Source: Roseobacter sp. MED193 (lineage in GTDB: Bacteria > Pseudomonadota > Alphaproteobacteria > Rhodobacterales > Rhodobacteraceae). From it: 64,000 bases of DNA. How positions within the stretch are numbered: the first letter of the stretch is position 1; the number at the start of each line of letters is the position of its first letter. This document shows, in pieces, positions 2,365 to 64,000 of the stretch. Under the pieces are notes generated by a model, which was not told the origin of the DNA, ran no database searches, and saw only the letters and a list, made by a program, of their open reading frames with translations. The position numbers were made by a program, and so were the translations under genes. Where the stretch lies: positions 2,673,892-2,737,891 of the forward strand of contig NZ_CH902583.1 of NCBI RefSeq assembly GCF_000152965.1, read 5' to 3'.

Positions 2365-5300
2365 TTAGATATTGTCTAGCCGGGCTTTAACAAAGGGGGC
2401 CTCGTACCAGGGGACAGAAAGACCTTCTTCGTAGACCACGTCGCGCCCTTCGGACATCAGGGCGAGATATTTTCGGTATTCTTCGGCATCATTGAAATGT
2501 TGGCGCCGCGAGACTTCGATCTGAGCCTTACGATAAAAGTCTGCATTATATTTGAAATGACCAAAGAGAAGCTCGCGTTGGGAGAGCTGGACATCAGTCA
2601 GAAAGTGATATCCGGCAGAGATGCGCATCCAGGGTTGGTATTTCAGCAAGGCAATTTTCTGGGCAACAAATAGATCCATCCGTGACCCGGCAATCAACCG
2701 GTGACGCACAGAGCTGGTCCAGGTGGGCATATTGGAAAACGGCCCCTGACCGGTCCAATCCGCCAGAAACGGCTCGCGATCAGTATAGCCAGCCTCATCA
2801 AAGGGATTGGTCTCAAAGGTAGCCTCTCCTAAGGACCCCTTTGGATACATGTCGAGCATGAATATTCGCGCCGCATCAACACCTTGGAATTCCGGGGTGT
2901 TCAACAGATCTGGCAGGCTTTGTTGCTGCCTCTTCTGCCAGATCAAGAGTTCATCCGTGTCGGCGATCAGGGTCCATTTGCCAACCCTAAAGGCGGACAT
3001 CATGGTCTGTTGCCAGCCTGCGCCATAATGCGAAAGGCTATAATCCGTATCCACGGAGAAGAGCGCCACATCGGGTTGTTCCATCAGAAATTCCAGGGTG
3101 CCATCATCCGAGCAATTGTCGGCGATCAAAAAGCTATCAACGCCGAGGCGCCGGTAATGTGCTAGGAATTGCGGCAACATGAACATTTCATTGCGCATGC
3201 AGGCGACCACGGCCACCTCAGCGTTGCGCGCTGACTCCAGGCTGTCTTCGCTGCTGATCAGCTCCAGCGCGTTGCTTTGATAGACGAGGGCGGCGTCCTG
3301 ATAGCTGGGCCAGATCTTTTTGGGCGTTAGCGTCGGCGCTGCCAGCGTGTCACAGGCTTGGGCCTGGGTTTCATGTTCGTCAAGATGCACTAGGGCCACT
3401 GGTGCCGCAGCACTGGCGTCAAAACTGTTCACCCAGCGCGACACTGGTTTTGCCTTGCCCCAGGTGCGACGGCGAATAGAGGTACGATAGTCCTCATCCG
3501 CAGGATGAATACCCTGTTGCGCCAATAGGTCTCCGAGCATCTTGTCTTCCATAAAGGACATCTGAATCAGATGCTGTCCTTCTGGGCTTTCTTCAGCGGC
3601 GATGACTGCTGCCATTGCGTTACGGCTGAGCGCGTATCCAGTGCCGCCATCGGTATATGTAGAGGGCTCGGGAGATTTATCCAATTCTAACCGGCCCCGG
3701 TCTGAGGTCGATTTTTCATTGTGCCAAGCGCGATCCATGTCGCCAGGGCGGCGGGTCAGGATGCGGCCATAAAAGTCGAACTTTCTATAGCTTTGACCGT
3801 GGAAAAAGACATCAGGATTCAAGAAGCAGTCATCGTCAATTTTGAGCAGATGCGAAAAGCGGGTGTTCTCATAGACCCAACGAATGGTGGCTAGGGTCTT
3901 TTGCGGCAGCCCTTCGTAGTTGTCTGGGGCGTCCACATGAACGATATCGCCCTCCTTCCAACCGTCACCATTGCCGACAATGATGACATAGGGAATATCC
4001 AAGGCCTTTAGCAAAGCCAGCCAACCGTTTTGCATAGCAGGGACGCGGCTGTTCAGGTTTGGCAGGCATGAGAACACGGTGACGATTGTGTCAAAAAGGG
4101 GCGATGATGCCAGTTCAGGTGCGCCCTGTGGCAGGTCGCGGGGGGGCGGAAGAAGATCCGCGATGTCAGGCAGGAGTGCGCTGACTTCTGAAAACAATTT
4201 TTGGGTGTCAGGCATGTCGCGGAGCGCCATCAGGGCAAGAGAAGGCGCAGTGGCATAGCGCAGTGCAGAGAGATCGTCGTCGTTCAGCTCTTGCACCTGA
4301 GATTTCAGCTGTTTTAGCAGAGTTGATACGGCGTCTTTTTGTTGTGCATTGGGGGAAAGCCCCCGCAGCAGCGCCAGGGTGAGCCCGAGGCCCAAAAACT
4401 GGCTGCGCCGACCTGCCAACAGTTGCAGATCCTGGCCCAGAGCCTTGATCTGATCGGAGGAAACAGGTGTCGACGTCGCCTGTTTGAGCAGCGCTTGTAT
4501 CCGTTGGCTTACTGCGATCTGAAGTTGATAGTAGGGCGCGCGTGGCACGTCCTTGTAAAATCTCGGTAGGGCCTGGGCGGTGACCAAGGTGAGATCCTTA
4601 TGCACCGGCTTTGCGCCGGGAAACGCCATATGGCGCAGGGCGGCTTCTTCTATTGCGACCTCGGCCCGGATCAGGGTCTCACGGTCAAGCGGGTTTGCAG
4701 GCTGAATTTCAACTCCCGAGGGGCCAAGGAGTTCGCGGCGAACCCGTTGCAGATCTCTGCAGTGGTAGTTTTTGAACAGAGACAAAGCCTTATCGAGCTC
4801 AGATTGACCTTTCGGTGGAAGGTGAGCGTTGGAGCCTGTCTGCTCAATAGAGGCTTCGATGGTGGCGAAAGCCTGCCGTAGGGCAAAGACTTCTGTATCG
4901 GTTTCATAGGCAAAATGGGCATCTAGATGACGCCAGAACTGACGCGACAGCCCATAGGTGCGAAGGACAAAATCGATGATTAGCCGGTGGGTGTAATCGG
5001 CAAAGCTATCGCGCTGTTCCAGCAACAAGACAGCAACCTCGGTGAGGTCAATACAATGGGTCCGCCCCCAGTAGTCGGCGGCCTGTTTGTCGATCAGATC
5101 CATATAGGCGTAGAGGATATTCTCTCGGGTTTTCTCGTTGACCCCTTGCCCCGCAATGCTGCGTCGTAGCAGCCAGGCCAGGGCTGGCGTGACGATCCAA
5201 CCTGCAGTGGGTTCGATCAACGACCGAAGGGTTGGGCAGATCTGATCGTGGCGTTCCTCGAGAAAAAGGAAGGGGAGCAGGGCGGAACTTTTGTAAAGGT

Positions 5301-6543
5301 TCCCAGGTTCAGGTGAGAGGCTGGCGCCAAAGCCCTCGGCGCAATACAGCCTGTGAAAGCCGTCGAAATCGCGGTCTGGGTGACTGAAGAACTCGCTGAG
5401 GGGAAGAAACAGATAGCGGCGCTGATCTTTGGGGACATCGGTCAGCAGATTTTCCAAAACCACAAGCGGATCGCTCGTGGGAGAGAGCCGCATCGTCTGG
5501 CCAAATTCCAAATGAGCCTGAACGACTGGGTCGCGGGGCGGGGGGGCAGCTGCCTTTGTGAGGGGGGTTGCGGGGACATTGGGTTCTTCGGCCTGACCCT
5601 CAGGGGCGGTGATGTAATCGCTCAGGCCGAAAAAGCGCTGGGCGCTGACCAGGCTGGCGCGGCTTTGACTGGACAGTCTGTTTTGCAGGCCGCCAAACTG
5701 GACATGTTCAAAGACCTGCATCGCCGCCAGTGAATCGTTGGCCAGATCGACCTCAGTCAGTATCAGCTCTATTTGGTCCGCCATGTCATCCCGTGTGAGT
5801 TGCAGGCGAGGACAGGCAGCAGAACCATCTTCGTGCAAAAGACCCAGGTCCAGGGCCTCGCTCTCCGAGCGGCCTTCCCAAACGCGGCCAGGTAGCAAGA
5901 CAATAATATCGGTGAAACCGGGCGCGCGGTCTTGACCGCCTTTTTTCTGGCTCTGCGGATAGAGAATGACTTTTGGTGGCGAAAGCTCCCCTGGCAGGTC
6001 CAGCGTCAGGGTGTCTGCCTTGGGCAGATTGTTCAATCGGGCGCGGAGCTCCAATCGGTTGCTGAGACAAAGCTGACCCTTGTCCAGTAGAGCCTGGTTG
6101 CTGCGGCTCAATGCTCCCAGGGCAAGTTTTGGATTGGCACTATCGCCAAAATCTACATCTCCAGCAGCGATTCCACCCTGATAACTTACAAAACTGATCT
6201 TATCGAGGTTTGGATAGGGACGACCAAACAGGTTGCGGCCAAAGCTGAAAACCTTCTTCCCATCCAGTGCGACGGTCACATGTGGTGGTGCGAAGGTAAT
6301 AGTGACCTCAACCCCTGTTTTGGGCAGCGGGTGCTTTTTTGCCTTTTCTGCAGACCATTGCTCACCCATGCGCCTATTGCAGACACAGAGCCCTTCTTCT
6401 TGGCGAAGCGACAAATGAAACAGGATGTTTTCCTGGTCGCGATCAAAAAACGAGATATTGGCATAGGGATATTGCGAGAACCTCGCCGTATAGCGAAACA
6501 CTGTGGTATCTTGAACTAGGAACGACTGCATTACGATTTCCAT
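2365..6543 (-). CDS. Multidomain glycosyltransferase: galectin-like, GT31-like and C-terminal GT2-type domains
   Basis: About 1392 residues counted from the ATG at 6543. The frame also opens at a TTG at 6621, inside the upstream gene; a second ATG is at 6531. Residues about 5-132 resemble a galectin domain: the strand pattern ISFF...FHLSLR...VCN...W..E keeps the sugar-contacting His43, Arg47, Asn56, Trp63 and Glu66, while the usual Asn two after the His is Ser45. Residues about 820-1020 look like a GT31 beta-1,3-galactosyltransferase: DNYEGLPQKT, then KIDDDCFLN with the DDD at 903-905, TDGGTGYALSR at about 964-974, and MEDKMLG near 998. Residues about 1110-1392 form a GT2-type domain (VACMRNEMFMLPQFLAHY, DNCSDDGT, ADTDE) of the kind common in roseobacters. 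The middle, about 135-820, is unassigned and mostly helical. It probably acts on surface glycans; acceptor and linkage are unknown. Confidence 0.85.
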   Translation of the reverse strand: MEIVMQSFLVQDTTVFRYTARFSQYPYANISFFDRDQENILFHLSLRQEEGLCVCNRRMGEQWSAEKAKKHPLPKTGVEVTITFAPPHVTVALDGKKVFSFGRNLFGRPYPNLDKISFVSYQGGIAAGDVDFGDSANPKLALGALSRSNQALLDKGQLCLSNRLELRARLNNLPKADTLTLDLPGELSPPKVILYPQSQKKGGQDRAPGFTDIIVLLPGRVWEGRSESEALDLGLLHEDGSAACPRLQLTRDDMADQIELILTEVDLANDSLAAMQVFEHVQFGGLQNRLSSQSRASLVSAQRFFGLSDYITAPEGQAEEPNVPATPLTKAAAPPPRDPVVQAHLEFGQTMRLSPTSDPLVVLENLLTDVPKDQRRYLFLPLSEFFSHPDRDFDGFHRLYCAEGFGASLSPEPGNLYKSSALLPFLFLEERHDQICPTLRSLIEPTAGWIVTPALAWLLRRSIAGQGVNEKTRENILYAYMDLIDKQAADYWGRTHCIDLTEVAVLLLEQRDSFADYTHRLIIDFVLRTYGLSRQFWRHLDAHFAYETDTEVFALRQAFATIEASIEQTGSNAHLPPKGQSELDKALSLFKNYHCRDLQRVRRELLGPSGVEIQPANPLDRETLIRAEVAIEEAALRHMAFPGAKPVHKDLTLVTAQALPRFYKDVPRAPYYQLQIAVSQRIQALLKQATSTPVSSDQIKALGQDLQLLAGRRSQFLGLGLTLALLRGLSPNAQQKDAVSTLLKQLKSQVQELNDDDLSALRYATAPSLALMALRDMPDTQKLFSEVSALLPDIADLLPPPRDLPQGAPELASSPLFDTIVTVFSCLPNLNSRVPAMQNGWLALLKALDIPYVIIVGNGDGWKEGDIVHVDAPDNYEGLPQKTLATIRWVYENTRFSHLLKIDDDCFLNPDVFFHGQSYRKFDFYGRILTRRPGDMDRAWHNEKSTSDRGRLELDKSPEPSTYTDGGTGYALSRNAMAAVIAAEESPEGQHLIQMSFMEDKMLGDLLAQQGIHPADEDYRTSIRRRTWGKAKPVSRWVNSFDASAAAPVALVHLDEHETQAQACDTLAAPTLTPKKIWPSYQDAALVYQSNALELISSEDSLESARNAEVAVVACMRNEMFMLPQFLAHYRRLGVDSFLIADNCSDDGTLEFLMEQPDVALFSVDTDYSLSHYGAGWQQTMMSAFRVGKWTLIADTDELLIWQKRQQQSLPDLLNTPEFQGVDAARIFMLDMYPKGSLGEATFETNPFDEAGYTDREPFLADWTGQGPFSNMPTWTSSVRHRLIAGSRMDLFVAQKIALLKYQPWMRISAGYHFLTDVQLSQRELLFGHFKYNADFYRKAQIEVSRRQHFNDAEEYRKYLALMSEGRDVVYEEGLSVPWYEAPFVKARLDNI

Positions 6544-6567
6544 ATGCCTGACTAGTGTTTTATTGTC

Positions 6568-6593
6568 GCCTGCCACCGGTGAGGAGGGCAGGC
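6568..6593 (-). other. Hairpin between the two glycosyltransferase genes
   Basis: The arms GCCTGCC and GGCAGGC (7 bp, perfect) lie directly after the stop codon of the upstream gene and before the ATG at 6543. No T-run follows on the minus strand, so it is not a classic terminator. It could be an mRNA-processing or stability element that sets the ratio of the two enzymes. Confidence 0.45.
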
Positions 6594-8503
6594 TAGGAGT
6601 TGCGACGAAGTCGGGCTTCAACGCTGAGCAGGGTTGCGATCCGCCGCCCCTCCCCCGGGTCTAGTGGTGTTTGCTCTCGGGTCAACCCTCGGCGTAGGGC
6701 TGCCCAGGTGGCTGAAGCAGACAATAGGGCCAATTTAAATGTCCGAAAGGGAGGACAAATCCGGGCTATCCGCAGACGCAGGGCGCGGCCAAAGAGGCGC
6801 CGCTGCCAGCCTTTGGGTAGTCTTTCTGCCAGATGCGGGGGCAGATTGCGGTTCAGTTGATCCAGAGAGCGCAGAAAGGGCCGGAACCCGCCGACGTCGT
6901 GATACTGGGCCAGTGCTTCGCTGGATTGATTGATATCACAGCCAGAATGTTGGAAGTAGGCTGATTGTTTTGCCAGCAAGGCTGCTTGCAGCGCCATAGT
7001 CCAGCCGGGTAAAGCACCGTTTCCAAATTGAAGGCCTGTTTCAATTAGAAAAGCCCGCCGATAGAGCTTTGGAGAAATCTGACCGTCCAACGCAAGGGCG
7101 GCTTCAGGAGCGAAGGCAAAAGCTGCGGTAGCCAAACTGTCCAGAGACACCGTTTCATCCTGATAGAACGAGGAGTGATAGTCTTCCCCCTCCAACCCCT
7201 GGCGAAAGACAGAGACGGCAAAATCAGCCTGAGCGAGGTGTAGCCCGTCCACCCAGTCATGCAGTGCCATCTCCGTCAGGATATCGCCAGCCACGAGAAA
7301 ATTCACATAGACACCCTGTGCGGCTTTGAGGCCGATATTACAGGCCGGGCCGAGTTCCGTTTCGCTATGGCGCAGGGCGCGGGCCTCGGAGTGGTGGCGT
7401 TCTGCGATGGCCTGGGCCTCGGCAAAGGCCGCGTCTGAATTGCACAGAATCAGGATCTCGCGCCCTGGGGCGCCTTGCCGGGCAAGCGATTGCAGGCTCT
7501 GCCGCAGCAGGCTGGCATCTTTTCCGCCCCAGGGGATAATCACGCTCAGCGGGAGCGTGCCGTCGATTTCCAAGCCCCAGGCGCGGGAGATGTGCGGATC
7601 CCAATCGGGGGAGTAGGTGAGATGATGCTTGTCCAGATAGGCCGCGCAGGCGCTGGCATAACGTGCCCGGCGTTCGCGATTGCGCAGGGCGGTGCTGCGT
7701 TCAAACAGAAGGCGGCTGGCGATTTTTTCAAAGGCGGCATCTGCCCCTGGGCGTTTGCTGGTTTTCATCAAATGTTTGATGCGGTCCAGAACGGCGAACT
7801 GTTCAAACACGCGATCACTGTCTTGGCCAGTGATCTGGCCTTCCCGTGCGCGTGTTTGCAAGTAGAGCGGCGCTTCGATGTGCAGCAGGTGGTCGGTTCG
7901 GGTCAGGGCTTGGTAGTAAAATTCATGATCCTCAAACCAGGTGCCTTCTGGGAACCGCAGGCCTTCAATCAGGCTGCGGCGATAGAGCTTGTTCCAGGCA
8001 GATGGAAAGTGTTGGATAGCGTCTTCCCAGTTCAACTGTGGATAGCGCTTTATCTGACCAGAGCTGTGCTGTGCGGCGCTTGCGTGGATCGCAGAATGGT
8101 CAATGGCTTGATCATTGGGAAAGCAAAAGCGGATGCCGCAAGACACCCAGTCGGCTCCTGTTGTCTCCAACGCTTGCCACAGGCGAAACAGATAGTCAGG
8201 TGCGAGCCTGTCATCGCTGTCGAGAAATGCAATGAAGGCACCTTGGGCTGCATCAAGCCCTGTATTTCGGGCGCCCGACAGGCCCTTGTTTTGTTGTTTG
8301 ATCAGGTGAAACCTTGGGTCAGCCCCGATCACGCTCTGGGCAATGGCAGCGCTATCGTCTGTTGATCCGTCGTCAATCACCAGGGCTTCAAAATCATTCA
8401 GTGTCTGGGCCTGAAGGCTGCGCAGGCAATCCGCCACATGGTCGCCCACATTAAACACGGGAATGATGACCGAGATGAGTGGCCGTGGTTCGGGCTGGGG
8501 CAT
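6593..8503 (-). CDS. Tandem-domain GT2 family glycosyltransferase
   Basis: 636 residues from the ATG at 8503; a TTG four codons upstream is possible but less likely. Residues about 5-230 form a complete GT-A domain: ISVIIPVFNVGDHV at the start, VIDDGSTDDS, NKGLSGARNTGLDAA, and FLDSDD, the metal-binding acidic motif. A second, degenerate GT2-like domain begins near residue 315 (LSVIIPWGGKDASLLRQSLQSL, then ACNIGLKAAQGVYVNFLVAGD), where the usual DxD is reduced to AGD. This second copy may only bind or may be inactive. The gene lies upstream of the galectin/GT31 fusion gene on the same strand, so the two are probably cotranscribed and act in the same glycan pathway. No membrane segment is evident. 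Donor and acceptor are unknown. Confidence 0.87.
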   Translation of the reverse strand: MPQPEPRPLISVIIPVFNVGDHVADCLRSLQAQTLNDFEALVIDDGSTDDSAAIAQSVIGADPRFHLIKQQNKGLSGARNTGLDAAQGAFIAFLDSDDRLAPDYLFRLWQALETTGADWVSCGIRFCFPNDQAIDHSAIHASAAQHSSGQIKRYPQLNWEDAIQHFPSAWNKLYRRSLIEGLRFPEGTWFEDHEFYYQALTRTDHLLHIEAPLYLQTRAREGQITGQDSDRVFEQFAVLDRIKHLMKTSKRPGADAAFEKIASRLLFERSTALRNRERRARYASACAAYLDKHHLTYSPDWDPHISRAWGLEIDGTLPLSVIIPWGGKDASLLRQSLQSLARQGAPGREILILCNSDAAFAEAQAIAERHHSEARALRHSETELGPACNIGLKAAQGVYVNFLVAGDILTEMALHDWVDGLHLAQADFAVSVFRQGLEGEDYHSSFYQDETVSLDSLATAAFAFAPEAALALDGQISPKLYRRAFLIETGLQFGNGALPGWTMALQAALLAKQSAYFQHSGCDINQSSEALAQYHDVGGFRPFLRSLDQLNRNLPPHLAERLPKGWQRRLFGRALRLRIARICPPFRTFKLALLSASATWAALRRGLTREQTPLDPGEGRRIATLLSVEARLRRNS

Positions 8504-8716
8504 TCGGAAAAACAACTTTTACAAATAGGGTCTGCGCGTGAGGGTTAATACATCACAAAGGCCCGTGCTGTCACCAATCCTCTTTGCGCAACCAGAGGTC
8601 GGAGAGAGCTGTCCCAGCTCTTCTATGTGGCGTCGATGACGCAATTTCACGCTTTATCCCACGCCTTGTGCCCGCTCTTTGTGCTGGTCATATTGAACGG
8701 AAGAGAAGGGGCGGGC

Positions 8717-33594: not shown

Positions 33595-35172
33595 CTAATC
33601 GGCAAAAAGATGCGGCGTTTCCGCCAGTTCTTTGGCGGTTTCAAATGGCAGGCTGAAGAACTCCATGAGCCGGTCGGCATTCTCCTCTGTGCTGTCGGAC
33701 TCGCGGATGATCGCATAGTTGGAATAGCCGGAATCGCGAATGCGGTCGGATTCGTAGACAATATCGTTACGGATTGTCGGCAGCAGCCGCTCCAGCGTTT
33801 GCTGCGGCGTGCGTTCCCCAGCGAGGCCCACCCTATGGGCATGACCAATCAAGTAGTCATCTGAGAATTCACACTCGATTTGCAGGGTGCGGGTGGTAGA
33901 GCGGTCCGAATTGAAGTCGTTCATCAACTCCAGGGCTGAGGGGTCCATACAGATGACCAGACGATCTGTGTCGAAATACTCAAACAACATCCGCATCAGC
34001 GCCCGCCGGTGTCGTGTGCGTTTATTTAACGAAGCCTGGATGCCACCGAGATCCGGCAGCGGCGTGCCTTCTTCGTGAAACAGATATTCAATGGCTGGGA
34101 TGTTGGTGCTTTTGCGCAGCTGTTCGATCAGGCGCTTGGCAACGTGCCATTTTTTGCAGACCACGATCATCAGTTCGCGCTCGCGCCCAAGCGAGCTTTC
34201 CTTCTCCCAGAAACGGGTGGCAAACCGACGACCAATGCGGCCGCGTTTCACCAGGAACTTGTAAAGGCTGCGCCCCTCGTTCGAGATCTGAAAGCTCACG
34301 CCTTGTGCCGCATAAAGGCGCCCCAAGCGCAGTTTTAGCTCTTTGGCATCGGGGCTGATCTTGCGGGCAAAAAGAAAGTCCTGGCTGAGCAGAAGATCAT
34401 AGTGATCATTGTAGAAATTCACCGGCATGCCGTAGTCGGTGAACATCAAAAACGTCAGGGTGCGGCTGTCGATTTCGGATCCCGGAACCAAGTGGCGCAC
34501 CAGGGTTTGAAAAAAGGTCTCATCCGGGATCCAGGTGGTCTGGAAAAAGCGGATGATGTCTTTGCGCTGGTCCAGCAGGTCGAAGATGGATTCTACTGTG
34601 CGACGGCGCAGGCACCACCATTGGCTGCCAATCTGTACCTGAACATCGCTGGGGATATCTCGTTTCAGTCCCAGTTTCTTTTGCAGGCTCACGCTGGCAT
34701 AAAAGAGCGCCTTATGGTTGCGTTCATTGAAGAAGTGGCGATAGGTCAGCCGCTCTTCCTTCATACCCGTCTTGATCCAGTCGCTCTCAAAAAAGTCAAA
34801 GCTTTCGACAAAATCACAGTCATGCCTATCCAGGAAGTCATGGGCGTATTCAGCGGTTTTGATCGCCATACAGTCGCCAGACAGCATATAAAAATGAGTG
34901 GCACGGGGAAACTCTTCGATGGCGCTGCCCAGCGCATGCAGGGTGGCCTGCACCAAAGACCACTCGCCCCAGCCACATTTGATCCGCTTCTTGGCAAAGC
35001 AGACGTTTGGATTGTCTGCCAGTGCTTTTTGAATGCTGGCGTAATCCTCTGGGTTTGCGCGCCGATCAAAATGAATGGACATGTAGTCACCGACCGCCGT
35101 CAGCTGTTCAGCCTGCTGGATGATCGCTTCGGGATCCTTGTGGCAGAGCAGAATATACGCAATTTTTGCCAT
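33595..35172 (-). CDS. Core-2/I-branching-type GlcNAc transferase with C-terminal extension
   Basis: 525 residues from the ATG at 35172, with AAGGTGA 11 bases upstream; a GTG five codons earlier is possible. Residues about 1-260 match the Branch (GT14-type) family: YILLCHKDPEAIIQQAEQL, IHFDRRANPEDY, KKRIKCGWGEWSLVQATLHAL, FYMLSGDCMAIKT, GSQWWCLRRRTVESI and WIPDETFFQTLVRHL. Enzymes of this family add beta-1,6-linked GlcNAc or xylose. The C-terminal part of about 250 residues is a separate domain found with it in roseobacters, of unknown function. No signal or membrane segment is seen, so it should act in the cytoplasm. It is divergent from a sulfotransferase, which suggests a shared glycan. 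Confidence 0.85.
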   Translation of the reverse strand: MAKIAYILLCHKDPEAIIQQAEQLTAVGDYMSIHFDRRANPEDYASIQKALADNPNVCFAKKRIKCGWGEWSLVQATLHALGSAIEEFPRATHFYMLSGDCMAIKTAEYAHDFLDRHDCDFVESFDFFESDWIKTGMKEERLTYRHFFNERNHKALFYASVSLQKKLGLKRDIPSDVQVQIGSQWWCLRRRTVESIFDLLDQRKDIIRFFQTTWIPDETFFQTLVRHLVPGSEIDSRTLTFLMFTDYGMPVNFYNDHYDLLLSQDFLFARKISPDAKELKLRLGRLYAAQGVSFQISNEGRSLYKFLVKRGRIGRRFATRFWEKESSLGRERELMIVVCKKWHVAKRLIEQLRKSTNIPAIEYLFHEEGTPLPDLGGIQASLNKRTRHRRALMRMLFEYFDTDRLVICMDPSALELMNDFNSDRSTTRTLQIECEFSDDYLIGHAHRVGLAGERTPQQTLERLLPTIRNDIVYESDRIRDSGYSNYAIIRESDSTEENADRLMEFFSLPFETAKELAETPHLFAD

Positions 35173-35310
35173 TTTGGAGACGGTCACCTTGTTTCGGCCT
35201 GATTGTCCCCTTGATAAAGGCGCGAGCGCATTGAATAAACCAGATTATTTGAATTTCGTGCTTAGATGTGGATTGTACCGCCAAAGCGGCATGACTGGAG
35301 GAAGGCTTAC

Positions 35311-36129
35311 ATGGGATTTCCCGGCACCTGGATGACCGAGAGCGAGAGCGTCATTTATCGCGTGGTGCCAAAATGCGCCTGCTCTACCATCGGTCAGATC
35401 CTGCACTATTCGGATCATGGCGAATTCTTTGAGGGCGATATCCACGACGCGCAAAAGGGGCTGCACAAATGGGCGCTGGATCACAGCCAGGGGCCGATCA
35501 CCCGCAATGTCCGCGGTCAGCGCACCTATGCTTTCACCTGTGTCCGCAATCCTTATACTCGGGTGCTCAGCTCGTTTTTTGACAAGATCTGCGGTATTCA
35601 GCGTAATGGCAAACGCTATCGCGGCAATCTGGTGCCCAAACTGATCTATGAATATGGCATCGAAGTCGGCGGCGAGGATGGCAAGCAGGAGTTTGACCAG
35701 ATCCAGAGCTTCCGTCGGTTCCTGCTCTTTGTGCGCGACAGCATTCGCTTCCGCCGCCCGATGGATCCCGATATCCACTGGTCAGCCATGTCAGGCCATG
35801 TCTCGACCTTTATCTGGAATGGCGGCCGCTACAACAAGATCTTCTGGACCGAGGATTTCAACGGCGGCATGCAGGAGGTTCTGGACGCCATCGAAACGCC
35901 TCATACAGTCGACCTGGGCGCGATCCCGCGCTTCAATGAGAGCGAAGGTCATGGCCCCAAACGGGCGCATCCGGTTGAGGACTATTTTGACGACCTGTCG
36001 ATGCATCTGATCTACGAGATCTACAAGCGCGATTTTGAGCTGTTCAAATACGACTTTGAGGATCCCTCCAACAAGATGCCGATTGGAGAGATTGATCTCG
36101 ACGAGGTGCACGCCAAGCTCGGCGAATAA
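35311..36129 (+). CDS. Sulfotransferase family 2 protein
   Basis: 272 residues from the ATG at 35311, with GGAGGAAGG five bases upstream; the in-frame ATG 45 bases earlier lacks this. The 5'-phosphosulfate-binding loop of PAPS-dependent sulfotransferases is VVPKCACSTIGQIL (about residues 18-31), and the 3'-phosphate motif is CVRNPYTRVLSSFFDKI (about 80-96). These are the motifs of the carbohydrate sulfotransferase group (PF03567). It should transfer sulfate from PAPS to a sugar hydroxyl. It is divergent from the branching GlcNAc-transferase gene across 138 bases. Its codon use is more GC-ending than that of its neighbours upstream. Confidence 0.87.
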   Translation: MGFPGTWMTESESVIYRVVPKCACSTIGQILHYSDHGEFFEGDIHDAQKGLHKWALDHSQGPITRNVRGQRTYAFTCVRNPYTRVLSSFFDKICGIQRNGKRYRGNLVPKLIYEYGIEVGGEDGKQEFDQIQSFRRFLLFVRDSIRFRRPMDPDIHWSAMSGHVSTFIWNGGRYNKIFWTEDFNGGMQEVLDAIETPHTVDLGAIPRFNESEGHGPKRAHPVEDYFDDLSMHLIYEIYKRDFELFKYDFEDPSNKMPIGEIDLDEVHAKLGE

Positions 36130-62114: not shown

Positions 62115-64000
62115 TTACCGCATCTGATTGGGCAACTCGCTAGATATCTTGGCAAAAGCCGAGGGTGGGAGATGCGTTTCCAGGGCAGGCGAGTCCGTCA
62201 CGTCTAGATGGGCAGGTGGCAGGCCCTGCAAATAGCGCGCGTAGGCCATGTCAAAGCCCTGCTCCAGCGCTTTGGTAAAGCCCTTGGTGTCAAAAAGCGG
62301 CGTGGAGAGGCGGTTGCGTTGCAATTTGCTGCGCAGGGAGGCCAGCGCATCTAGATCATTTGCGAGCTCCAGAGCACGGGCCTCGTAGTCTGCGGCGGAT
62401 TTGGCGATCATTTCTGGCAGGCCCATTGCGCTCACCAGGCTGGCCCCAACGCGCGAAGCAAACTGGCGCCCAGGCAGCGTGAGGACTGGGAGACCCGCCC
62501 AGAGCGCATCACTTGCCGTTGTATGCGCATTTACCACAAAGGTATCAAGAAACAGATCTGCGGCTCGATGCCGGGCGAGGTGTTCTTCCTGGGCAATGCG
62601 GGGCGCAAAAATCAGACGATCGGGATCTTGGCCTCGACGCTTGGCCTCTTTGCGCAGGTTTGTCTTGGAGGTCTCGCTGCAGTCCAGCAGCCACAGGACA
62701 CTGTCTTCGACCTGGTCAAGTAAGCGCATCCAGATATCAAATTCAACTGGGGTGATTTTATAGCTGCTATTAAAGGAGCAGAACACAAACCCGTTGTCCG
62801 GCAAGCCGCAGTCCTTGCGGGTGTATTGGCGCCCAGAAAAAACGCGCTTGTCATCATTGACCTGATAGCTGTGTGGCAACCGGATGAGATGTTCCTCAAA
62901 GTAGCGCTCGCTACCGGCAGGGCAGGTGATGTGATCGCCAATAAAGTAGTCTATCGCAGTACTTCCCAAGGTTCCTGGAAAGCCCAGGTAGGACATGTGC
63001 AGAGGGGCCAGCCGATTGGCAAAGAGGGTCATGCGGTTGTTGCCGGTAAAGCCCTTCAGATCAATGGCGATGTCCAACTTATCCGCGAGAACCTGCTGTG
63101 TGGCCTCCGCGTCGGTCAGCTGGTGGATGTCCTTAAAAATGGTGACCGCCTGGCTGACACGGCGCCGCATGGCATCTTCGGGGGCCGTATCATAGGAATA
63201 GGCAATGATGTCAAAGCGGCTCTGATCATGGGCCTCAAAAAGCCCGGCCATCAGGCGCATTGTGGCGTGGTCGTGAAAGTCCGAAGAGAAATAGCCTATG
63301 CGCAACCGGTCCGGGCGATCTGTTCCGATCAGCTCCGCAGGGAGGGGTGTTGCGGATTTTACCTGGGGCAGGGCTGCGTTTGAATAGGCTTGGATGCGCA
63401 GACGCAGGAGGTCTGGGTTGTCCTCAAAGGTAAGAGAGGCGAAAGCCGAACAGGGCTTGCTGGTGAGGCCAAGCTGGCGACGGAATTGCTGATACTCCTC
63501 CATCCAGCTCCAATCATTCAGATGGGCCTGAACGTGCAGTTTGTCTGCGCGGGTTCGGTCGTCACTGGGGGTGGTTTCCAAGATGTGTTCGAACCGCTTG
63601 ATGGCCGCTTCTTTGTCGCCATCCAGAGATTGCAGTTGTGCCAGATTGTATTGGGCGCCACTCAGCTCAGGAGCCAGCTCTGTGGCTTGCTCCAAAAAGG
63701 TCTTTGCCTGCTCGACGCGGCCCGTTCTCAGCAATACATTGCTATAGTTGAAGAGAATTACGGCGCTCTTGGGGGCTAGTTTGCAGGCCCTTTCCAACAG
63801 CGGCTCAGCCTCGGCTAGACGGCCCAGATCCGTGAGGGTGTTTGCCATATTGTTGAGTGCACTCAGCGTGTCCCCATCTAGCGAAAGGGCCTTTTTGTAG
63901 AGCGCAAGCGCATTGTCGATTTGCCCCTGAGCGCGGTGCACGTCGCCCAAGGAAGAAAAGATAGCCGGGTCCTTTGGATTGAGCTCGCAAGCCTTGTTCA
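62115..64000 (-). CDS. TPR-containing GT41 (O-GlcNAc transferase-like) glycosyltransferase, 5' end missing
   Basis: The frame is open to the right edge, so the N-terminal TPR region continues outside; about 628 residues are visible. At least three TPR units appear first (PAIFSSLGDVHRAQGQIDNALALYKKALSLDG and so on). The catalytic domain begins near RLRIGYFSSDFHDHATMRLMAGLFEAHD. It contains DLKGFTGNNRM, APLHMSYLGFPGTLGSTAIDYFIGD, FVFCSFNSSYKITPVEFDIWMRLL and DTFVVNAHTTASDALWAGLPVLTLPG, the UDP-sugar site of the GT41 family. Bacterial GT41 proteins modify proteins or act in glycan synthesis; here the acceptor is unknown. Confidence 0.9.
   Translation of the reverse strand, partial: NKACELNPKDPAIFSSLGDVHRAQGQIDNALALYKKALSLDGDTLSALNNMANTLTDLGRLAEAEPLLERACKLAPKSAVILFNYSNVLLRTGRVEQAKTFLEQATELAPELSGAQYNLAQLQSLDGDKEAAIKRFEHILETTPSDDRTRADKLHVQAHLNDWSWMEEYQQFRRQLGLTSKPCSAFASLTFEDNPDLLRLRIQAYSNAALPQVKSATPLPAELIGTDRPDRLRIGYFSSDFHDHATMRLMAGLFEAHDQSRFDIIAYSYDTAPEDAMRRRVSQAVTIFKDIHQLTDAEATQQVLADKLDIAIDLKGFTGNNRMTLFANRLAPLHMSYLGFPGTLGSTAIDYFIGDHITCPAGSERYFEEHLIRLPHSYQVNDDKRVFSGRQYTRKDCGLPDNGFVFCSFNSSYKITPVEFDIWMRLLDQVEDSVLWLLDCSETSKTNLRKEAKRRGQDPDRLIFAPRIAQEEHLARHRAADLFLDTFVVNAHTTASDALWAGLPVLTLPGRQFASRVGASLVSAMGLPEMIAKSAADYEARALELANDLDALASLRSKLQRNRLSTPLFDTKGFTKALEQGFDMAYARYLQGLPPAHLDVTDSPALETHLPPSAFAKISSELPNQMR

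Follow-up and report, generated by a model that had tools for sequence, protein, structure and literature searches.

A galectin domain joined to GT31 and GT2-type transferase domains in a Roseobacter protein and its relatives

Introduction

Galectins and the glycosyltransferases of family 31 (GT31) are both known mostly from eukaryotes, and a bacterial gene that joins the two raises the question of what a lectin might contribute to a bacterial transferase. The gene lies on the minus strand of a 64,000-nucleotide stretch of the Roseobacter sp. MED193 genome (contig NZ_CH902583.1, positions 2,673,892 to 2,737,891; referred to as the window) and encodes a protein with a galectin domain at the N-terminus, a GT31 domain in its distal half and a GT2-type transferase domain at the C-terminus. 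A first-pass annotation of the window had likened the protein to the plant GALT-type β-1,3-galactosyltransferases and suggested an enzyme that binds its own acceptor glycan and adds two sugars. The presence of galectin and GT31 in one protein is already known from plants. With a probability of roughly one half, we consider the protein to be a cytoplasmic two-transferase enzyme which would extend a galactose-containing, often sulfated surface polysaccharide and hold the acceptor by its galectin domain.

Results

The galectin domain

A Pfam search at E-values up to 10 detected exactly three families in the protein, all above their curated cut-offs, namely the galectin family PF00337 at residues 29-104 (7e-8, 32.5 bits with a cut-off of 22.1), the GT31 family Galactosyl_T PF01762 at residues 865-1016 (1.4e-12, 48.2 bits with a cut-off of 23) and the GT2-type family Glyco_tranf_2_4 PF13704 at residues 1117-1214 (2.8e-21, 76.3 bits with a cut-off of 27.5). 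Public domain databases presumably already show these matches; NCBIfam has no family for the protein at E-values up to 1. Both transferase families match all 73 rows of alignment A4, which consists of the window protein and all 72 distinct homologues and to which the residue counts given below refer. PF00337 matches, at E-values up to 1, 57 of the 62 rows of alignment A3, made of the window protein and 61 of the 72 distinct homologues with the 11 divergent ones omitted.

The galectin pattern which the first-pass annotation had seen at residues 5-132 is well supported beyond Pfam. A phmmer search of residues 1-148 against the PDB sequences gave 54 matches up to an E-value of 1, the best being galectin-9 (1.8e-6), and 53 of these are named galectin or galactose/β-galactoside-binding lectin, the remaining one being labelled just "human lectin". 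An AlphaFold model of residues 1-808 was built from 62 sequences (mean predicted local distance difference test score, pLDDT, 89.5; predicted template modelling score, pTM, 0.63), with block pLDDT values of 84-97 over residues 11-130 of the galectin domain and lower values at both of its ends. In a Foldseek search with this N-terminal half, the best 50 of 1317 PDB matches are all galectins, GRIFIN included, with E-values from 3.8e-6 to 1.5e-5 and template modelling (TM) scores by target of 0.65-0.78 where the chain has a single domain and 0.36-0.42 where it is a tandem one. A laminin-G or other sandwich was considered and rejected on the strength of these galectin matches.

The five sugar-contacting residues reported in the first-pass annotation (His43, Arg47, Asn56, Trp63 and Glu66) are found where it had placed them, and the alignment with galectin-9 pairs all five, with His43, Ser45, Arg47, Asn56, Trp63, Glu66 and Ala68 opposite His, Asn, Arg, Asn, Trp, Glu and Arg, respectively. 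Trp63 is kept in all 73 sequences, His43 and Asn56 in 72, Ser45 and Arg47 in 71, Glu66 and Phe32 in 70, and Asn29 in 68. Two of the seven contact positions thus differ from the classical pattern, since the first Asn is a Ser in 71 of the 73 sequences and the second Arg, at position 68, is variable. Six of the seven classical contact positions are nevertheless within the top 7 most conserved of the 128 galectin columns (hypergeometric p = 9e-9, with relatedness ignored), and across the alignment the contact residues are constrained almost as tightly as the catalytic ones. As these residues are kept in 70-73 of the 73 sequences despite a mean pairwise identity of just 32% in the domain, sugar binding, beyond the fold alone, seems to be under selection. 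In the AlphaFold model, His43, Ser45 and Arg47 alternate along a predicted strand at residues 39-47 and Asn56 is located on a strand at residues 52-59; these strand positions and the galectin-9 alignment indirectly suggest that the contact residues, including the His43, Arg47, Asn56 and Trp63 expected to lie together, would form a cluster.

The transferase domains

The GT31-like domain is likewise clearly recognizable, as apart from PF01762 it has the DDD motif at 903-905, the GGTGYALSR loop at 966-974 and the ED motif at 999-1000, just where they had first been described, and D903-D905 and E999-D1000 are invariant in 73 of 73 sequences. We take the DDD motif to function in metal and nucleotide binding and the ED motif to be the source of the catalytic base, as in GT31 enzymes. 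The further transferase domain behind it also holds up, with D1142, N1143, S1145, D1147, G1148, D1195, D1197 and E1198 of the GT2-type domain present in every one of the 73 sequences.

The C-terminal half, residues 800-1392, is modelled with high confidence (73 sequences, pLDDT 92.3, pTM 0.90), and its best Foldseek matches are CHSY3-CHPF1 (1.1e-11), B3GalT5 (2.6e-11), CHSY3-CHPF (5.3e-11) and B3GalT6 (2.5e-10), with the Escherichia coli K4 chondroitin polymerase (K4CP) among the others at 2.4e-8. B3GalT5 and B3GalT6 match the GT31 part, and CHSY3-CHPF1 and the K4 polymerase span most of the length. The same two galactosyltransferases are found by a profile search with sequence (B3GalT6 at 7.9e-9, B3GalT5 at 3.6e-6). 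The structural comparison called for by the first-pass annotation places the N-terminal half with the galectins and the C-terminal half with β-1,3-galactosyltransferases and chondroitin synthases. The protein has no strongly hydrophobic segment, the highest 19-residue Kyte-Doolittle mean being 1.33 (at 839-841) and all others 1.2 or less. A value of 1.33 is below the usual 19-residue mean of a membrane helix.

Gene and reading frame

The open frame extends over 1418 codons (2365-6621, from a TTG at 6621) and encodes 1392 residues when counted from the ATG at 6543, the numbering used here. The true start is probably Met5, the ATG at 6531, because the homologues align from about this residue; the start methionines of the homologues in that alignment were picked by us, and the assignment depends on it. 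The G+C content of the gene is 0.54-0.58 in 1-kb steps, with no clear departure from the surrounding region. Promoter-like sites (2, with 3.0 expected) and terminator-like sites (16, with 7.3 expected and a standard deviation of 2.8, mostly intragenic) were set aside as evidence. A sequencing artefact or chimera is ruled out by the identical domain order in 73 loci of many genera and on complete plasmids.

Distribution of the family

The galectin-GT31-GT2 family is patchily distributed and has plasmid-borne members. A scan of the genome_contigs collection with a ten-sequence alignment gave 125 confirmed stretches, the best 80 of which represent 79 distinct loci. A family profile finds the galectin domain in 75 of the 79 loci, and in the other four (L058, L086, L090 and L097) the frame starts at the first base, i.e. 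at the contig end. The protein runs from the galectin domain through the C-terminus in one frame in 73 of the 79 loci; since this full-length filter required a galectin match, to say that all 73 have a galectin domain would be circular, and the unfiltered 75 of 79 is the figure to be used. Some entries are shared between the genome_contigs loci, the sampled genomes and the plasmids (for example L040 with G350, L116 with the Tropicibacter plasmid), so that the counts given here are not independent of each other. By record title, nearly all hosts are Rhodobacterales genera or bins labelled Rhodobacteraceae or Alphaproteobacteria, and the nearest relatives are from an uncultured Roseobacter (91% identity in the best segment) and Pseudophaeobacter flagellatus (73%). 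Two full-length relatives bear non-alphaproteobacterial titles, L078 in a Bordetella petrii record and L100 in an Azonexus bin, for which contamination, misbinning or transfer are possible.

In the 388 genomes sampled from the window's family, the GT31-GT2 pair occurs in 12 at E-values below 1e-270 among the matches listed, at most three candidates having been scored per genome. The galectin domain is present in all 12, in ten by Pfam and in two by the family profile, and a thirteenth GT31-GT2 copy, which shares its contig with one of the twelve, is without it. The gene looks accessory, as PF00337 finds nothing in the other sampled genome of the window's genus (G340), where the listed matches contain one partial GT2-type match only. 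PF00337 is present in 11 of 394 genomes of the family, the window's included, one of them (G216) being divergent and frame-split. This divergent relative (L018, G216:C168) has its galectin, GT31 and GT2 parts in different frames and is either a broken gene or an assembly error. The wider taxon search covered Pseudomonadota and 14 control genomes. At class level, PF00337 was found in 2 of 384 others, which belong to a single genus and have a different architecture, and at phylum level in none of 298 others, and PF01762 in none of 239 and 248 others at class and phylum level, respectively, in samples that include some genomes of the window's family and that a family present in about 3% of it can escape. 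Neither domain has a match in the 14 control genomes.

A tblastn search of the window protein matched 19 of 72,556 plasmid records, five of them over at least 80% of the protein, from Thalassococcus, Tropicibacter, two Sulfitobacter and Palleronia. A phage origin was considered, and no match was found in 50,697 phage records by tblastn; the galectin alignment gave 15 pattern matches in viral_contigs, none of which was confirmed.

Rearranged relatives

Several relatives deviate from the common architecture. First, a paralogue of 1203 residues (L114:9017-12625, minus strand) has the spacer, a GT31-like domain (20 bits, below the cut-off of 23) and the GT2-type domain and lacks the galectin domain. 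Next, a fused member (L117, G047:C26, frame 4071-7619) has lost galectin and GT31 together; what remains is the upstream GT2 portion, some of the helical spacer and the GT2-type domain at the C-terminus. Finally, two genomes of another alphaproteobacterial family (L103:9475-13143 in G759 and L104:4686-8531 in G682) have a galectin domain (PF00337, 2.6e-9 and 1.7e-7) on a GT2-GT25 protein, with a motif HxAxR instead of HxNPR. The galectin-less paralogue, the L117 deletion and the galectin-GT2-GT25 proteins, each a single or double case, suggest that the galectin may be a movable module tied to transferases. Elsewhere, a 329-codon fragment (L118, G100:C9, frame 7443-8429) matches the C-terminal GT2-type domain only and adjoins an RTX-like frame.

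Gene neighbourhood

A gene for a further GT2 protein is found directly upstream (Table 1). Among the 73 full-length loci, its counterpart is fused to the galectin-GT31-GT2 protein in 23 (22 distinct proteins, those of L023 and L064 being identical). In another 31 it lies upstream at a distance of no more than 2.6 kb, and the remaining 19 have no match there, little upstream sequence being available for some of these. Other neighbours were surveyed by tblastn with 23 genes from four annotated plasmids in flanks of up to 6 kb of the 79 loci. The GT4-type partner was detected in 45 loci, a sulfotransferase in 38, capsule-type ATP-binding cassette (ABC) export genes in 25 and a UDP-galactopyranose mutase in 24, with at least one of these four classes in 51 of 79. 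A query of the M10/RTX C-terminal type matches 19 of the 79 loci. On the plasmids, all five genes lie within polysaccharide regions, a complete rfbABCD being present in the stretches of Thalassococcus, Tropicibacter and Sulfitobacter W027, and the gene itself is annotated as "glycosyltransferase" or "glycosyltransferase family 2 protein". In the window's genome, the only match to the GT4-type partner is just left of the window, 4.6 kb from the stop of the gene (55% identity, 3.2e-183), and beside it are two sulfotransferase-like genes, one well over and one under the Pfam cut-off.

Two other groups of glycan-related genes are present in the window. At 33598-36126, about 30 kb from the galectin-GT31-GT2 gene, a Core-2/I-branching (PF02485) transferase with DUF5928 stands beside a divergent Sulfotransfer_2 gene and forms a further eukaryote-like glycan set, and at 62118-63950 on the minus strand there is a tetratricopeptide repeat protein with a GT41 domain of the O-GlcNAc transferase type (PF13844, 7.5e-87).

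Table 1 Features of the galectin-GT31-GT2 gene and its upstream neighbour in window coordinates.
Feature	Position	Strand	Basis
Upstream GT2 protein (640 residues)	6593..8515	-	PF00535 1.5e-44, two stretches; 61 nt before the probable start
Galectin-GT31-GT2 protein gene	2365..6543	-	ATG 6543 (1392 residues); probable true start ATG 6531; in-frame TTG 6621
Galectin domain, residues 5-132	6148..6531	-	PF00337; PDB phmmer; Foldseek
Sugar-contact cluster His43, Ser45, Arg47, Asn56, Trp63, Glu66	6346..6417	-	Each residue in 70-73 of 73 aligned sequences
Second, smaller beta-rich module, residues 160-250, with conserved PGR(I/V)W motif	5794..6066	-	AlphaFold secondary structure, pLDDT 54-94 per ten-residue block; alignment
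Helical spacer module, residues 251-805, with low-confidence gap near 317-333	4129..5793	-	AlphaFold secondary structure
GT31 domain (Galactosyl_T, GT-A fold), about residues 816-1030	3454..4098	-	PF01762; Foldseek B3GalT5, B3GalT6
DDD motif, residues 903-905	3829..3837	-	Invariant, 73 sequences
ED motif, residues 999-1000	3544..3549	-	Invariant, 73 sequences
GT2-type domain (PF13704), about residues 1108-1392, with DNxSDDG and DxDE motifs	2368..3222	-	PF13704; invariant residues

Discussion

The gene context, the invariant catalytic motifs and the constrained sugar-contact residues together favour a polysaccharide enzyme that holds its acceptor, and the original suggestion of an enzyme which binds its own acceptor and adds two sugars is the most economical reading. 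The protein would be a soluble, cytoplasmic, multi-domain enzyme of polysaccharide assembly in which the galectin domain binds the growing, galactose-containing chain and, across the long helical spacer, retains it close to the active sites. The inverting, metal-dependent GT31 domain would transfer a sugar in β-1,3 linkage, most probably galactose, and the GT2-type domain at the C-terminus would add a second one. Between them they would lengthen a surface polysaccharide that contains galactose and is often sulfated, destined for capsule-type ABC export. About one in three full-length relatives has the upstream GT2 protein fused on, and this protein would serve as a further transferase in the same assembly line. 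The domains, fold, conservation, fusions and gene context described above are observations, on which the putative ligand, donors, linkages, processivity and cytoplasmic location are built.

A number of observations weigh against such an enzyme. The superposition with the two-domain chondroitin synthases is poor, with a query TM of 0.24-0.29 and a root-mean-square deviation of over 20 Å along the whole length, and it is therefore the single domains that match and not their arrangement. The beta-rich module and the helical spacer have no consistent match in the Pfam and NCBIfam family searches. In the gene neighbourhood, 19 of 73 loci are without the upstream transferase in the flank and 28 of 79 have none of the four neighbour classes there; the window's first 20 kb gave no tblastn match to any of the 23 query genes, and for capsule-type export the window's genome has a single, weak match (27% identity) at a distance of about 1 Mb. 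One paralogue has both transferases and no galectin domain, so that the lectin can be dispensed with. A bacterial galectin-like fold also need not bind sugar, since domain IV of Am2136, a GH20 enzyme of Akkermansia muciniphila, has such a fold and showed no significant carbohydrate binding (PMC9673926). A further objection concerns the binding site, where the Asn of HxNPR is replaced by Ser in 71 of the 73 sequences and WGxExR lacks a conserved second Arg. By mutagenesis of galectin-1, the HxNPR Asn is reported to matter for lactose, and the ligand may therefore be other than a plain β-galactoside.

This objection leads to a first alternative, which we regard as possible but rather on the unlikely side, namely that the Asn-to-Ser change has re-purposed the galectin fold for another ligand, e.g. 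galactofuranose or a sulfated or uronic residue, with the mechanism otherwise unchanged. Besides the near-invariant Ser45 and the variable residue 68, the HxAxR motif shows that a second galectin-transferase type is also without the Asn, a UDP-galactopyranose mutase accompanies 24 of the 79 loci, and the Am2136 domain provides a bacterial precedent, its galectin-like fold having shown no significant binding of the carbohydrates tried (PMC9673926). Against this, five residues of the galactose site (His, Arg, Asn, Trp and Glu) persist in 70-73 of the 73 sequences, and a bond between Ser and the sugar is still conceivable.

Alternatively, the galectin domain might be a tether or sensor that binds the finished polysaccharide and places the enzyme at the export complex or reports chain length, without presenting the acceptor; carbohydrate-binding modules do so on some ABC exporters. 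The export genes beside 25 of the 79 loci, the galectin-less paralogue with both transferases and the long helical spacer between the lectin and the transferases would all fit, but the contact residues are nearly as constrained as the catalytic ones, and the joint loss of galectin and GT31 in L117, the sole deletion of this kind, favours a link to the GT31 chemistry. While neither point is decisive, we consider a tether or sensor unlikely.

Less probable still is a role in protein glycosylation, for instance of a secreted RTX-repeat adhesin, with the galectin reading sugars already added as the ricin-like domain of GalNAc-transferases does. The animal polypeptide GalNAc-transferases are lectin-assisted through that domain (PMC4202792), the plant GALT2 and GALT5, with their galectin and GT31, modify protein (PMC4431829, PMC4687291), and the 19 of 79 loci matched by the M10/RTX query might point to a substrate. 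RTX repeats, however, are common and cross-match easily, and the rhamnose operons, UDP-galactopyranose mutase, sulfotransferases and capsule-type ABC export all point to a polysaccharide instead.

Galectin and laminin-G are both jelly-roll folds. A chance resemblance to some other beta-sandwich of this sort is hardly credible, for although the Pfam score is moderate (32.5 bits) and galectin-like folds without clear sugar binding have been described in a bacterial glycosidase and phage tail proteins (PMC9673926, PMC6115969), that score is over the cut-off, galectins appear in the phmmer list and make up the 50 listed Foldseek matches, and the contact residues are conserved.

The acceptor-holding enzyme proposed here has partial counterparts in several known systems. 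Among them are the plant GALT1-GALT6 (CAZy GT31, PF00337 and PF01762), in which the galectin is also followed by GT31; the Arabidopsis GALT2 and GALT5 have it N-terminal to GT31 in one protein, and the GALT proteins are roughly 620-690 residues long and predicted to be type II Golgi membrane proteins (PMC4431829, PMC4687291). The likeness drawn in the first-pass annotation holds for the domains themselves and is otherwise incomplete. The galectin-to-GT31 gap of GALT2 and GALT5 is about 50-70 residues by the domain limits in a figure legend (PMC4431829), as opposed to about 680 beta-rich and helical residues in the Roseobacter protein, which in addition has the GT2-type domain and often a fused upstream GT2, neither of which is named in the plant passages. 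Furthermore, the Roseobacter protein is without an N-terminal type II membrane anchor by the Kyte-Doolittle profile, and its family has HxSxR in place of the galectin HxNPR.

The chondroitin synthases CHSY3-CHPF and the E. coli K4 polymerase have two tandem GT-A domains, as here, although the whole-length superposition is poor and they have no galectin domain; a chondroitin-synthase-type arrangement of the two transferases (CHSY/CHPF or K4CP) was considered and not supported by the Foldseek superposition. In CHSY-type enzymes the GT31 domain comes first and the second domain is GT7 or of another GT2 subfamily. The human B3GalT5 and B3GalT6 share the GT31 fold and motifs and are single-domain Golgi enzymes. 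Animal galectins (galectin-9, galectin-10, chicken GRIFIN) have the fold and five of seven contacts in common with the Roseobacter domain, but they are stand-alone or tandem lectins without a transferase fusion and have Asn where Ser45 is found here. Within bacteria, the galectin-GT2-GT25 proteins likewise bear an N-terminal galectin on a multi-transferase protein, with GT2 and GT25 replacing GT31 and PF13704. Phage distal tail proteins also have a galectin-like fold (PMC6115969), but there and in Am2136 it is joined to a tail hub or glycosidase rather than to transferases and is described by structural resemblance. No described bacterial galectin-transferase was recognised, from titles, abstract openings and passages, in searches of an open-access library on galectins in bacteria, galectin-GT31 and lectin-transferases, and the matching passages of two further articles concern animal galectins (PMC10541879, PMC11148175).

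In the class- and phylum-level samples, GT31 was found in the window's own genome only, which makes its origin an interesting question. An encompassing but doubtful scenario would combine a lectin-guided two-sugar polymerase with a common ancestry with the plant GALTs, in which galectin and GT31 moved together into marine Rhodobacteraceae, or in the opposite direction, and the spacer and second transferase were added in bacteria; the product would be a glycan with galactose and sulfate that recalls plant arabinogalactan or animal glycosaminoglycan, and the enzyme would be encoded partly on plasmids with rhamnose operons. As a bacterial family with the same two domains, conserved contacts and no evident anchor, the proteins are amenable to expression, site mutants and glycan arrays. 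The galectin-GT31-GT2 gene makes the surface polysaccharide of marine bacteria accessible to genetics and may provide a route to a two-sugar synthase.

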